Shown: positions 2,551-31,126 of the stretch, one piece after another
Position numbering within the stretch: the first letter of the stretch is position 1
Layout: every line of letters starts with the position of its first letter
DNA from: a virus
DNA: 34,065 nt
Reading direction: 5' to 3' (one strand)
IMG/VR virus record: IMGVR_UViG_3300030107_001482
Span: 1 to 34,065 of that record
Program-made: the position numbers and the translations under genes
The notes under the pieces: model-generated
Database searches by the model: none
The model's input: only the letters and a program-made list of their open reading frames with translations
What the model was told of the DNA's origin: nothing

Positions 2551-3430
2551 TATGTACATAGGCAAGTGTTAATCGCAAGATTAAATTACTCCCTTAGGAC
2601 TCTTTAGAGAAACCTAGACGACACAGTTTGTGGGAATTAGGAGAACGACAGAGACCGATAACTCAAAAGCAGAGAGCTTTATAGAAGATATTAGTTAGAT
2701 GTGAAAACGAAACTTAGGGAAGTAATTAGCCCACTTAGTTAAGTAAGTAAAGTAAGGAGTAGGAAGTACAATAGGCGTATCAACTACAGGATTGAGAATT
2801 TCCATTAAAAAATAATTTAAAGTAGGATTGGTATAAATCTTAACTAGCCTTAATGCAACTGTATCTTCTACAAAGTTCTTTGTAACTGAGTTCTTATGGA
2901 TATGAGTAGTTGTTTGGTTTTCTATTTATACCTGCTCTTTAGTAGGATTCGAGGAAGATGTCAGGTCAATTAATAGTAATAAAACATATATTGATTCGAA
3001 GCAATATGAACTACTTAAATATGTTGGAAGTAATGCCTTTGGCGAGTATGTAAGACTCACGGATATTCCGTTGTAATAGAGCAAAGGTTGAGAAGAATAC
3101 CATTAAATGCAATCAACTTGGACTTGATTGGCATATTTAGTAAGCAAACATAAACGCTCATATCCGTAAGGACTTAGTTGATTTGAGAATACTTTTGTGA
3201 AGCTCGACAAAGTCGATAGATGTAAAAATCTACACACGAAATCCTGACGAGTTGCTTTTAACAGAGGACAGATAACCCTGTGGGGTTAGGTTTTAGAGCT
3301 GATACCAATAACAAACAGAACAAACTTACTATTTAATGAAAAACGAATAGGGGTTTAGCAATGGGAAGTACGAATACCCTAAATCATAAGGGGAGTAGGA
3401 ACTAGCTAGATGTGGCTTCGCAAAAGTATT
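2551..3430 (+). ncRNA. Candidate giant structured non-coding RNA (about 0.9 kb)
   Basis: No convincing ORF exists on either strand for about 900 bp, in a genome whose genes otherwise nearly all touch. Many short helices can be drawn: a GNRA hairpin at 2569-2584 (loop GCAA); a long-range helix 2584-2593 with 2717-2727; hairpins at 2600-2609, 2666-2680, 2870-2883, 2931-2946, 2990-3005 (inside helix 2983-2989/3019-3025), 3035-3043, 3044-3058, 3059-3071, 3107-3134 (about 10 bp, one bulge), 3163-3172 (loop GTAA), 3204-3216, 3217-3232 and 3273-3288. AGTAGGA occurs four times (2758, 2821, 2941, 3394). Length, phage setting and dense structure recall the GOLLD and ROOL giant RNA classes, but I cannot confirm membership; it could be a new class. 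The 3' end is uncertain. Confidence 0.7.
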
Positions 3431-3451: not shown

Positions 3452-3479
3452 TTGCATAAAACAAATCAGAGATTAATAT
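3452..3479 (+). promoter_or_regulatory. Promoter with operator for the 3507 operon
   Basis: TTGCAT (3452-3457), 16-bp spacer, TAATAT (3474-3479), with AATCAGAGATTA at 3464-3475. A hairpin (GATTTG/CAAATC, 3449-3467) overlaps the -35 region and may end the upstream RNA. Confidence 0.6.
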
Positions 3480-3506: not shown

Positions 3507-3926
3507 ATGTATAAAGGAGATTGCTACGAAGCAAACCTTAAAAAATATCTTGATAGTGTAAATAAGAATACTGTTCTTGTTCACGCTATGAGAGAGATTG
3601 TAACTGAGTATTGGGGTGGACACGCTTTTTTACTCGACAAGAAAAGAAACAGAGTTTTTGACTTTTCTAATGGTAAATCTCAACAATGGAATAAAGACGA
3701 GATATTTGAAAAATGGAATATCCAAGTTCAAGGTCGAGATATGTACTTTGAATATACAAGAGAACAAGCCCTGCAAAAAGTTTTAGAACATAAAACTTTT
3801 GGCTCTTGGGATTTAACTTTTGAAAATTGGAATGATGAAAACTATTTGGAATATATAAGAGATTATTTTATTCCTAAATTCCAACCTGTATATTTTTCTA
3901 TGATAAGAGAAGAAGTAAGGAGTTGA
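3507..3926 (+). CDS. Hypothetical protein, possible cysteine-peptidase-like fold
   Basis: A 139-aa soluble protein. AGGAG lies 5 bp before the ATG. The pattern GDCYEAN near the N-terminus, LVHA around residue 24, WGGHAFLLD around residue 36 and VFDFSNG around residue 50 gives an ordered Cys, His, Asp set. It resembles a family of small phage proteins (GDCYEA...LVHG...HAW...D.SNG) thought to have a papain/transglutaminase-like arrangement. Activity is inference only. First gene of a run of tightly packed small genes. Confidence 0.6.
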   Translation: MYKGDCYEANLKKYLDSVNKNTVLVHAMREIVTEYWGGHAFLLDKKRNRVFDFSNGKSQQWNKDEIFEKWNIQVQGRDMYFEYTREQALQKVLEHKTFGSWDLTFENWNDENYLEYIRDYFIPKFQPVYFSMIREEVRS

Positions 3927-6260: not shown

Positions 6261-6290
6261 TTGTGATTATTTATAATCTTTGATTATACT
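6261..6290 (+). promoter_or_regulatory. Promoter with operator for unit 6297-6515
   Basis: TTGTGA (6261-6266), 18-bp spacer, TATACT (6285-6290); AATCTTTGATTA at 6275-6286 overlaps the -10 box. An ATG follows 6 bp after the -10 box, so the transcript should begin at or next to ATGAATGAAAC, a start sequence shared with the gene at 19485. Confidence 0.65.
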
Positions 6291-8522: not shown

Positions 8523-8536
8523 TATAATGTAAGATT

Positions 8537-8591
8537 AGAGCAGAGTGGAGTAGTGCCGATAAGGGTTGCGTCCATTACTTCACAAAGCTCT
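8537..8591 (+). other. Interrupted hairpin between terminase and portal genes
   Basis: AGAGC/GCTCT (8537-8541, 8587-8591) and GTGGAGTA/TACTTCAC (8545-8552, 8576-8583) form two stacked stems separated by a 3x3 internal loop. The structure lies in one of few real gaps in the head operon, immediately before the portal ribosome site. It could control portal translation or mark a packaging-related site. Confidence 0.5.
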
Positions 8592-13938: not shown

Positions 13939-13967
13939 TTGCAATCTTAGATTAGTTGTGGTATAAT
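13939..13967 (+). promoter_or_regulatory. Plus promoter with operators, divergent hub
   Basis: TTGCAA (13939-13944), 17-bp spacer, TATAAT (13962-13967). AATCTTAGATTA (13943-13954) overlaps the -35 box and AATCTCTGATTT (13929-13940) lies just before it. With the minus-strand promoter, four operator copies lie within 76 bp. Confidence 0.75.
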
Positions 13968-19449: not shown

Positions 19450-19478
19450 TTGCAATATAATCAAAGATTATATAATAT
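19450..19478 (+). promoter_or_regulatory. Promoter with operator for unit 19485-19814
   Basis: TTGCAA (19450-19455), 17-bp spacer, TAATAT (19473-19478) (or TATAAT at 19471 with 15 bp). AATCAAAGATTA occupies 19459-19470. The ATG lies 6 bp after the -10 box. Confidence 0.7.
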
Positions 19479-20515: not shown

Positions 20516-20556
20516 TGGATTGTTGTGGTAACGGTTGTTGCACAGGTGGTAAGTAA
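20515..20556 (+). CDS. 13-aa Cys-rich microORF (CCxxxCC)
   Basis: MDCCGNGCCTGGK. Start and stop each overlap the neighbouring gene in TAATG form, so it is locked into the translation chain between the basic microprotein and the tail tube. Four of 13 residues are Cys in a CC-x3-CC layout, which could bind metal. It may instead be only a translational coupler. The evidence is the exact junctions. Confidence 0.45.
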   Translation: MDCCGNGCCTGGK

Positions 20557-21266
20557 TGGCATTTATACACGGTAAAGACACCAAAGTAATTATAAATTCA
20601 ACAGACTTGAGTGCTTATCTTAATAGTGCAGAGCCTTCAAGAACTGCTGATATAGGAGAGACTACAACTTTTGGTAGCTCTAACAAAAGCTATATTGCAG
20701 GAGAAAAGGACGCTACAGTTTCTTTTGGTGGATTCTTTGACGCAACGGCAGACAATATTATTCAAGGTTTAGTCGGAACTAATGACAAAGTCGCAGTTAT
20801 TGGTTTTGACGGTGTGGACGCAACAGACGATTGTATGTTTGGTAAAGGTGTAACAACTAACTATGGGATTTCAAGTCCTGTAGGAGATACAGTTGCAGTA
20901 ACCTTTGACCTTCAAGCAAGTGGTTTCTTTAGTGGTAGTGTACTTGAAAACGCAACAGTAACGGCTTCAGGTAACGGAACTGCTAGAGATAATGGAAGCT
21001 CTACTGCCAATGGTGGTGGTGCTTTTATAGTCGCAACAACAGTATCAGGAACAAGTACGCCTACATTAACTGCTAAGATTACACATTCAGCAGATAATGT
21101 AACTTATGCAGACTTAGTAACATTTACTGCTTTGACTTCAGCAGGTGCAGAAGTAAAAGAAATTGCAAGTGGTACAACAATAAACAGGTATTTAAAAGTT
21201 GTTTATACTGTATCAGGAACAAACCCAAGTTTCGCTGTTATAGTTGGACTTGGTAGAAATAATTAA
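20556..21266 (+). CDS. Major tail tube protein, long paralogue
   Basis: A 236-aa protein. The N-terminal 130 residues (MAFIHGKDTKVIINSTDLSAYLN, ETTTFGSSNKSYIAGEKDATVSFGGFFDATAD, GISSPVGDTVAVTFDLQASG) form a tail-tube fold. A Gly/Ser/Thr-rich hinge (140-155) and a second small beta domain resembling an added surface domain follow. It polymerises around the tape measure. Its sister gene follows immediately. Confidence 0.8.
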   Translation: MAFIHGKDTKVIINSTDLSAYLNSAEPSRTADIGETTTFGSSNKSYIAGEKDATVSFGGFFDATADNIIQGLVGTNDKVAVIGFDGVDATDDCMFGKGVTTNYGISSPVGDTVAVTFDLQASGFFSGSVLENATVTASGNGTARDNGSSTANGGGAFIVATTVSGTSTPTLTAKITHSADNVTYADLVTFTALTSAGAEVKEIASGTTINRYLKVVYTVSGTNPSFAVIVGLGRNN

Positions 21267-21277
21267 AGGAGAAATTT

Positions 21278-21688
21278 ATGGCATTTACACACGGTAAGGA
21301 TTCAGTTTTCAAACTTGATAACGCTTCAGGCTCATTAACTGATATTTCAACTTATGTAAATAATGTGGACTTCCCTGAATCAGCAGATGTATCTGAAACT
21401 ACAACACTAGGTGCAGATAATAAAACTTATATAGCAGGTCTAAAGGACGCTACCATTTCATTGGCAGGTCTTTGGGACGCTACTGCTGACGCTATATTTG
21501 GTGCAGTTGTTGGACAATCAGCAACTTTATCTTATGAATATAGCCCTGAAGGAACTGCAAGTGGCAAGATTAAATATACAGGAGAAGCAATATTAACTTC
21601 TTATAGTATTTCTAGTCCTGTTGGAGACGCAGTTGGCTATTCAGCAGACCTTCAAGTTTCAGGTGCAGTTACTCGTGGTACACACTAA
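21278..21688 (+). CDS. Tail tube protein, short paralogue
   Basis: A 136-aa protein clearly related to the preceding one (MAFTHGKDSVFKL, ETTTLGADNKTYIAGLKDATISLAGLWDATADAI, SISSPVGDAVGYSADLQVSG) but lacking its C-terminal domain. Either can be the main tube protein; the long form may be a minor decorated version. AAAGGAG precedes the ATG. Confidence 0.8.
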   Translation: MAFTHGKDSVFKLDNASGSLTDISTYVNNVDFPESADVSETTTLGADNKTYIAGLKDATISLAGLWDATADAIFGAVVGQSATLSYEYSPEGTASGKIKYTGEAILTSYSISSPVGDAVGYSADLQVSGAVTRGTH

Positions 21689-28159: not shown

Positions 28160-30328
28160 GTGCTTAACCTAAAGAAGTTAGTTTGTATTGCTTCTGTATG
28201 CTTTATTGCAGTTCCAATACCTGCTTTTGCAGATGAAGTTACTGTTACAGAGACTTTTAACAATCAAGAAATTAACGAAGATATACAATTTTTGTATGGT
28301 GGTAATGATACAACTGTATCTGCAAGTACAACTCAAGACCCTGAATGTGCTAGTACAACCAATGCAGGAACAATAGGCATTGAAGATTTAGATTGCTTTG
28401 GTAGTATTTACTTTGGTACAGATAGATTCCAACTTGGTATAAGAGCTAGTGCAGACACTCTTACTATTGCATTCCCAAATTCAGATAGTAAAGCAATTAC
28501 AGAAGTTGGTTTTGTTTACAATGCAAGAGAAACAACAGGCACAGGTACAGTTTATTTTGCTAACAATGAAACTCAAACAATTAATTTTATAGACCAACAA
28601 AGTGAAACTAATCAATCTAATACAGTAACTATTACTGCACCAACAGGCACAACAATCAATGAAATACAAATTGCAGGAGTTACTTCAGGGACAGATTGGT
28701 GGCTAATTGATAGTGTATATTATAAGTATGATAATATTTCTACTACAACGACATCTAGTTCGACAACAACTACGACAACAACAAGTACAACAACCACAAC
28801 AACCACAACAGTTCCACCGACAACTACTACAACAACTGTGCCACCTACTACGACTACAAGTACAACTACGACTACAACAACTACAACAATTAATCCACTT
28901 GATGTCGAGAGAAATAATAATCAAGCAGAAACAGGGCTTAGGGAAACTAATCAAGAACGCCAAGATAGAGAAGATAGAGAGTTTGAAGAATGGTTGGCTA
29001 ATGAAGAAGCTAAAAGACAAGCTGAGAGAGAAGCAGAAGAAGAACGACTTAGATTAGAAGAAGAAGCTCGTATTGAAGCAGAGCTTGAAGCTCAAAGATT
29101 ATATGAAGAAGAACAAGAAATTCTTAGGTTAGAAGAAGAAGAACGCCTAAGAATAGAAGAAGAAGAACGCATACAAGCTGAGTTGGAAGAACTTATGCGT
29201 ATCGAAGCAGAAGAAGAAGCTGAAATATTACTTGAACTTGAAGAAGCAATTGACTTAGAACAAATAGGATTAGAAATAATAGTTGAATGTCCTGAAGAAG
29301 AAGTTGATTGTGTTGAGCCAACAGAAGAAGAAATAGAACTTATTAAAGCAGAACTACAAGAGTTTATAGATGTCATTCAAGAATTAGAAGAACTTGATTT
29401 AGAAGAAGAATATTATATTGAAGAAGAAATAATAGAGATAGAAATTATTGAATTAGATATAGAAGATATAATTATTATTGTAGAAGAAGAAGTAACACTT
29501 CCAATAATAGAAGTGTTTGATGAAGAAGAAATATTAGAAGATGAGTTGGACAAAGAGATACTTGGAGATGACACCGATACAACGGAAGAAATTCAAGAAG
29601 AAGATGAATTACTTGAAGAAGAAGAATTAGAATTTGTAGAAGTAGAGCTTACTAAAGAAGAAATACAAGTTGAAATAGAAGAACTTACTGAAGTCATTGA
29701 AGAAATAGTCGTAATAGATATACCTGAAATTACTGAAGAAGAACTAGAAGAATTAAGCGAAGAAGAACTAGAAGAATACGAAGAAGCAAAGGAAGAAGCC
29801 ATTGAAGAATTTGTGGAAGAACTTGAGACAGAAGAAGTTATTGAAATACTTGAAGAAGTTAATGACGCAGGATTGGAAAACCTTGACGAAGTTAGCGAAG
29901 ATGTACTTGAAGTTGTAGCTCAGGTTGTCGAAGAAGTAATAGAGATAGCACAAGAAGAAGAACTAACTGAAGAACAAGTAGAAGTTGTTGCAGAAGTTCT
30001 AGGCTTTGAAGAAACAGATGATGTCGAAGTCTTAGCTGAAGCAATTAAAGAAGATAAAACTGTTGAAAAGGCAGTAGAAGAATTTGTAGATAGAGCAGTT
30101 GAGAACGCTGATGTAGAAAACTACACACTTGCAGACGCTACAACAGAAATTGCTTTTGAATCTTTAGTAGCAGGAGACTTTAGTGTTATTATAGATGTTG
30201 ATTTAGACGCAATAGATTTGACAAACATATCAAATGATATGACACAAGATACTAAGGAAAAGGCTCAAGAAGTTTTAGTTCCAACAGTTATCGTAAATAT
30301 CATATCGTTTGTAAGGAGATTTAATTGA
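28160..30328 (+). CDS. Large secreted acidic protein with Thr-rich linker
   Basis: A 722-aa protein with a probable signal peptide (cut after AFA, residue 24). A beta-sandwich-like domain (25-190), a Thr/Ser/Pro linker (about 194-248, TTTTVPPTTTT), a Glu/Arg coiled coil (about 265-350) and then about 330 residues with very many Glu, Asp, Ile and Leu. The last 15 residues are hydrophobic, with RR at the end. Such Thr/Pro linkers are typical of secreted proteins of Acidimicrobiia-like actinobacteria, so a host origin is likely. Possible roles: cell-surface change, superinfection exclusion, virion appendage. The GTG start at 28160 has a poor ribosome site. Confidence 0.65.
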   Translation: MLNLKKLVCIASVCFIAVPIPAFADEVTVTETFNNQEINEDIQFLYGGNDTTVSASTTQDPECASTTNAGTIGIEDLDCFGSIYFGTDRFQLGIRASADTLTIAFPNSDSKAITEVGFVYNARETTGTGTVYFANNETQTINFIDQQSETNQSNTVTITAPTGTTINEIQIAGVTSGTDWWLIDSVYYKYDNISTTTTSSSTTTTTTTSTTTTTTTTVPPTTTTTTVPPTTTTSTTTTTTTTTINPLDVERNNNQAETGLRETNQERQDREDREFEEWLANEEAKRQAEREAEEERLRLEEEARIEAELEAQRLYEEEQEILRLEEEERLRIEEEERIQAELEELMRIEAEEEAEILLELEEAIDLEQIGLEIIVECPEEEVDCVEPTEEEIELIKAELQEFIDVIQELEELDLEEEYYIEEEIIEIEIIELDIEDIIIIVEEEVTLPIIEVFDEEEILEDELDKEILGDDTDTTEEIQEEDELLEEEELEFVEVELTKEEIQVEIEELTEVIEEIVVIDIPEITEEELEELSEEELEEYEEAKEEAIEEFVEELETEEVIEILEEVNDAGLENLDEVSEDVLEVVAQVVEEVIEIAQEEELTEEQVEVVAEVLGFEETDDVEVLAEAIKEDKTVEKAVEEFVDRAVENADVENYTLADATTEIAFESLVAGDFSVIIDVDLDAIDLTNISNDMTQDTKEKAQEVLVPTVIVNIISFVRRFN

Positions 30329-31098: not shown

Positions 31099-31126
31099 TT
31101 GCATTTATAATCTTTGATTATATAAT
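31099..31126 (+). promoter_or_regulatory. Promoter with operator for gene 31133
   Basis: TTGCAT (31099-31104), 16-bp spacer, TATAAT (31121-31126). AATCTTTGATTA (31109-31120) fills the spacer. ATG follows 6 bp after the -10 box. The preceding stretch 30995-31098 holds no gene. Confidence 0.75.

Follow-up and report, generated by a model that had tools for sequence, protein, structure and literature searches.

The interval 2557-3430 of a viral contig almost certainly encodes, as judged from its sequence, a phage noncoding RNA composed of a 5' domain followed by three closed domains (beads II, III, and IV-A). The contig is IMG/VR record IMGVR_UViG_3300030107_001482, analyzed over its whole 34,065 nt (hereafter the window), and its terminase, portal, head and tail genes establish its phage origin. 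A sequence-only reading had proposed a large structured phage RNA at this place. Covariation in several independent helices, conservation, and the pattern of presence and absence among relatives bear this out, with transcription itself inferred, and the claimed extent of 2557-3430 agrees with where the RNA is predicted to start and with the closing helix of its last bead.

Locus and Noncoding Character

The region 2551-3430 lies between two + strand genes, one for a metallophosphatase/exonuclease of the Mre11/SbcD type (1229-2461; phrog_284) and one for a 139-aa protein of unknown function (3507-3926). The longest + strand open reading frame in this region is at most 31 aa, the same as in shuffled sequences; the earlier remark that no convincing ORF is present therefore stands, and a coding reading was rejected. 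The minimum free energy of the + strand is -218 kcal/mol (z = -4.5 against shuffles), compared with z = -2.2 for the - strand. Ten family members, tested among the 22 distinct RNAs parsed, all fold below their shuffles (z from -4.0 to -10.7), and the + strand gave the stronger z in five of the six RNAs compared.

The host is perhaps an actinobacterium, a weak indication that comes from the exonuclease, because its matches among phage records are mostly from actinophages (the best ones at 26-28% identity). Elsewhere in the window, 28160-30328 encodes a 722-aa protein that has no PHROG match; its start is signal-like, and it contains a threonine-rich stretch and long low-complexity sequence rich in glutamate.

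Domain Organization of the Window RNA

The unit of construction is the bead, a large branched hairpin with a long closing helix at its base. On the + strand, the 5' domain (2557-2668), whose type occurs in this window alone, is followed by bead II (2669-2883), the two ends of which pair in a closing helix of about 22 bp. Bead III (2884-3179) is closed by pairing of 2884-2907 with 3156-3179, in which 22 bp are conserved (2885-2906 with 3157-3178), and contains an inner helix, a left arm of type L6 (2918-2984), a central hairpin (2985-3012) and a right arm of type R2 that reaches 3142. Bead IV-A (3188-3430) is closed by AATACTTTTGTGAAGC (3188-3203) paired with GCTTCGCAAAAGTATT (3415-3430). Most relatives carry a pseudoknotted domain, termed alpha, in place of the 5' domain private to the window.

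The sequence-only reading had described more than a dozen helices. It was right that the region is structured, but the loose set of helices gives way to three big closed domains. Its GNRA-type hairpin at 2575-2578 is now placed in the 5' domain confined to this window, and the one at 3166-3169 is put in doubt, since its nucleotides form part of the 3' strand of the helix closing bead III; this 22-bp helix is supported by covariation, and the hairpin therefore competes with a better-supported structure. Of 114 predicted hairpins, 6 have a GNRA loop, where two shuffles had 1-2, a number too small to support any argument. Its long-range helix joining 2584-2593 to 2717-2727 is unsupported because the 3' half belongs to bead II and is conserved in relatives that lack the 5' half.

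Evidence for Structure at the RNA Level

Compensatory changes, for which a covariation check had been suggested, were found in bead III, bead II, bead IV-B and the 5' pseudoknot. In bead III, 98.8% of cells are paired and eight pairs (16 cells) have changed on both sides, while none of 500 shuffles scored as high; sliding the register gave far lower pairing than the proposed one. Changes on both sides affect 4 of the 22 pairs in the bead II closing helix (0 of 500 shuffles) and 11 of 62 predicted pairs in bead IV-B.

The alpha domain of the relatives consists of an H-type pseudoknot followed by a hairpin. Its helix P0 appears as AGAGA:UCUCU, GUUAC:GUAAC, GUUGU:ACAAC and UAAGG:CCUUA, and its helix P1 as GAGUC:GACUC, UACUC:GAGUA, UCAGG:CCUGA and UGGUU:AACCG. 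All 214 of 214 pseudoknot cells are paired, 62 of them changed on both sides, and shuffles reached at most 161 paired, in a hand alignment that favors the proposed pairs. The 5' domain was aligned by hand because the automatic MAFFT alignment misregistered it. In the hairpin that follows, the loop reads AGAGCCA, and its GCC is able to pair to a GGC farther downstream.

Across 50 distinct closing helices there are 98 G.U pairs and 17 A.C mismatches, a count in which some bias toward G.U remains because folding of the + strand was used to find the beads. The excess argues that a + strand RNA is under selection, unlike DNA inverted repeats.

Beads as Exchangeable Units

Relatives were gathered from IMG/VR by searches with neighboring genes and with sequence patterns, so that all come from this one viral collection; 22 different RNAs, the window's included, were parsed end to end. 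The family RNAs measure about 620-1330 nt and, as parsed from individual minimum-energy folds, comprise a 5' domain and then 2-6 beads, which nearly abut (linkers mostly of 0-5 nt, up to 12). The closing helix is exactly 22-24 bp long in 50 of 83 beads, across unrelated bead types, and the remaining ones are mostly 11-21 bp, with a few longer. The closing helix of most beads spans about two A-form turns.

The number, order and identity of the beads vary. Bead III occurs in tandem in L002, L097, and L044, in two or three copies (three in L044), on a parse from minimum-energy folds in which the tandem beads of L044 and L097 are also pairable in a nested way. In L103 and L104 bead III precedes bead II, opposite to the window order. 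The last domain may be IV-A, IV-B, IV-C, II or others, which are unrelated types. Bead type V is very large, 450-480 nt (L135, 2341-2820; L136, 12773-13225), with long conserved internal segments, and is almost an RNA within an RNA.

Exchange also extends to parts of beads. In bead III, the commonest one, similarity clustering distinguishes eight left-arm and nine right-arm sequence types, which are mixed around the central hairpin; left arm L1 alone is found with seven right-arm types. Sub-hairpins move too, as the window segment 3046-3082 is also present in L002 within a right arm of another type. The hinges and closing helix of bead III are nearly invariant in sequence, and these hinges would serve as recombination sites.

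Genomic Settings, Presence and Movement

The 28 IMG/VR contigs in which homologous RNAs were found represent at least four genomic settings. In the clade of the window the RNA follows the exonuclease gene, and L134, L135, L138 and their allies have the same gene order with an exonuclease about 38% identical. The RNA of L088 and L090 is oriented against its neighboring genes, which by their translations look like queC, queD, queE and folE. It lies between tail genes in L103, L104, and L139, and in a further context in L136. No partner protein stands out, because the flanking genes vary across settings. The window itself has adjacent similar genes at 20556-21266 and 21278-21688, tail-tube-like by resemblance, and L103 and L139 have the RNA placed between the counterparts of this pair.

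Among contigs whose exonuclease is 95-97% identical to that of the window, the RNA is present in L002, L004, and L008 and absent in L005, L009, L010, and L020. In other relatives its position is occupied by protein cassettes. In L012 and L016-L019 small genes of unknown function lie there, downstream of the exonuclease gene (one product of 126 aa, MKLTELKTLKAQD..., and one of 149 aa), and the site is therefore a general accessory slot. In addition, L006 (3554-3701), L007 (5685-5832), L015 (5910-6058), and L026 (4372-4519) each carry a solitary bead of 148 nt within the leader of the downstream gene, and the same site has empty alleles in L005, L009, and L013.

RNA stretches of 80-92% identity are common to phages whose proteins are only 30-40% identical. 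The RNAs of L088 and L044 share 419 nt at 90% identity, with the L088 exonuclease 40% identical to the window's, and those of L104 and L044 share 159 nt at 92%, with L104 virion proteins 30-39% identical to the window's. The modules therefore move horizontally and independently of the remaining genome. A plausible account, which we rate a little short of evenly balanced, is that phages share a pool of RNA domains recombining as units and half-units at conserved hinges into combinatorial multi-domain RNAs, with arms-race selection acting on the exchangeable arms and single beads also moving alone to new sites.

Searches of other collections gave no homologues: blastn with three family members found no match in 50,697 phage isolate records, nor did one member in 72,556 plasmid records. 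A 17-base pattern of the family has 28 matches in bacterial genomes, against about 30 expected by chance; blastn of these matches with seven family RNAs gave nothing, and a bead search of the same genomes returned a single 26-nt match, around the pattern itself.

Promoters and Operators

The promoter predicted for the RNA (2523-2550, + strand), as read from the sequence, comprises TTGCAA (2523-2528), a 16-nt spacer and TATTGT (2545-2550), placing the RNA start near 2557. An upstream operator identified by motif count, the perfect palindrome TAATCTCAGATTA, lies at 2475-2487, and a second one, TAATCAAAGATTG (2532-2544), within the spacer. The earlier claim of an operator-bearing promoter is strengthened by the relatives, as the predicted promoter and the two operators hardly vary in front of the homologous RNAs; the promoter is also kept in L134, L135, and L138. 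The downstream gene has a + strand promoter of the same layout at 3452-3479 (TTGCAT, a 16-nt spacer with AATCAGAGATT, and TAATAT), and in relatives without the RNA a promoter block of this type comes directly after the exonuclease gene.

The operator motif has 15 matches in the window, against 1.2 expected. An operator-like palindrome, TAATCTNAGATTR, is found at eight window sites, mostly shortly upstream of genes (840-852, 2475-2487, 2532-2544, 6274-6286, 8525-8537, 13942-13954, 19458-19470, and 31108-31120). One phage regulator probably controls many accessory promoters through operators of this type. That the RNA would be transcribed from its own promoter under this operator network we only infer, because a sigma-70 consensus scan did not list the 2523-2550 promoter and a scan for an intrinsic terminator of the RNA detected none. 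A short T run follows the closing helix of bead IV-A.

Relation to Known Large RNAs

Rfam covariance models, at gathering and at permissive thresholds, gave only chance-level matches in the window and eleven related loci. A comparison with the GOLLD, ROOL, HEARO and OLE models had been suggested: with cutoffs of E 10 for the window region and E 0.5-1 for the eleven related loci, GOLLD has no match, and ROOL, OLE and HEARO have none in the window or these loci. Group I and group II introns and the known ribozymes in Rfam gave no catalytic-core match in the window or its relatives, and the window RNA, unlike introns, interrupts no gene. Neither the window nor any of 15 related loci contains a tRNA gene.

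GOLLD assembles into a 14-mer RNA cage. It is phage-encoded, about 800 nt or more, elaborately structured and less conserved at one end, and both GOLLD and ROOL form RNA-only cages and often lie by tRNA genes (PMC12286853). The window RNA is likewise phage-encoded, of similar size, elaborate and less conserved at one end; however, its family has no universally present 3' domain, its domains are interchangeable and repeated, and a tRNA neighbor is lacking. ROOL is also a large ornate RNA with pseudoknots encoded by phages or prophages, but the present family is a string of closed beads and not one fixed fold, and has no tRNA island. OLE and HEARO resemble it as large structured bacterial RNAs, but beyond the lack of a model match, no associated protein was recognized beside the RNA in an incidental look. 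Mosaic phage accessory loci and tail-fiber exchange offer another parallel, with modules swapped at conserved sequences and present or absent between close relatives, although here it is the domains of a single noncoding RNA, and even halves of them, that are exchanged.

The suggestion of a divergent GOLLD or ROOL thus fails, as there is no Rfam match at a useful threshold, no tRNA neighbor and a different architecture. Among the GOLLD/ROOL features testable here only phage origin is shared, and the family is therefore filed as a new class, perhaps working like GOLLD and ROOL without being one of them. This supports the alternative suggestion of a new giant RNA class, one stranger than was proposed, because its domains are interchangeable beads. 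To our knowledge no such class has been described, and a literature search found no description of such a modular RNA family.

Possible Functions

The likeliest mechanism, put forward tentatively, is a role in trans, with the RNA serving as scaffold or decoy in the takeover of the host or in counter-defense. The stems would be rigid, uniform spacers in a stable RNA, the exchangeable arms at the bead tips would bind or sequester proteins or RNAs of the host or of rival phages, and recombination at the conserved hinge sequences would change the set of binding modules. Tips that vary while the stems stay constant, the frequency of exchange and the accessory nature of the RNA would fit such a role, which is proposed from the exchange pattern and the accessory locus only; a solitary bead in a gene leader, however, could point to a role in cis. 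Identity and mechanism taken jointly stand at about even, the average of a nearly certain part and a tentative one. No short motif common to unrelated bead types, beyond family homology, was found and GGA motifs are at chance level, so that no common ligand is visible; a CsrA/RsmA sponge was rejected on the same GGA count.

The main rival, which we consider unlikely, is that copies of the RNA self-assemble as in GOLLD and ROOL, forming a large homo-oligomeric cage or particle with intermolecular contacts at the bead tips. The RNA has the size, phage origin and ornate structure of those cage-forming RNAs and no obvious protein partner (PMC12286853), and its uniform stems, about two turns long, would be well suited to building a regular particle. 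A bead number of 2-6 and an order that varies between relatives are nevertheless hard to fit into one closed symmetric shell, and no loop motif common to unrelated beads was found. More doubtful is a polycistronic array of small RNAs, in which host RNase III would cut the 22-24 bp stems and release each bead as a functional RNA. These stems are about as long as a minimal RNase III substrate, beads nearly abut, and solitary beads exist, but some bead types have stems of 12-18 bp, and the near-invariant sequence of the bead III closing helix and hinges exceeds what a processing signal needs.

The solitary beads in L006, L007, L015, and L026, which adjoin the ribosome-binding site of the downstream gene, are what speaks for a cis-acting leader or attenuator of the downstream operon. 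This reading is slightly less probable again, as the downstream gene of the window and of most relatives has a separate operator-bearing promoter after the RNA, and the RNA lies upstream of different genes or, in L088, opposite to its neighbors. It is very improbable that the beads are MITE-like mobile elements at the DNA level, with the closing helix as terminal inverted repeats. Beads do move between loci, and the 7-bp direct repeat AGGAGTT that flanks the solitary bead resembles a target-site duplication; against this, compensatory changes and the strong excess of G.U over A.C speak for RNA, beads abut without duplications, and opposite-strand bead matches occur only alongside the RNA itself, as expected of its own inverted repeats.

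We know of no function for giant phage RNAs, the known classes of which have each been described as one conserved architecture. The present family is a case of domain shuffling in a large noncoding RNA, and its uniform two-turn stems suggest a building principle. The duplication, permutation and exchange of domains between phages are natural mix-and-match experiments that could link arms and beads with hosts, ligands or assembly states. A shared pool of RNA domains, if true, would be the RNA counterpart of protein domain shuffling.
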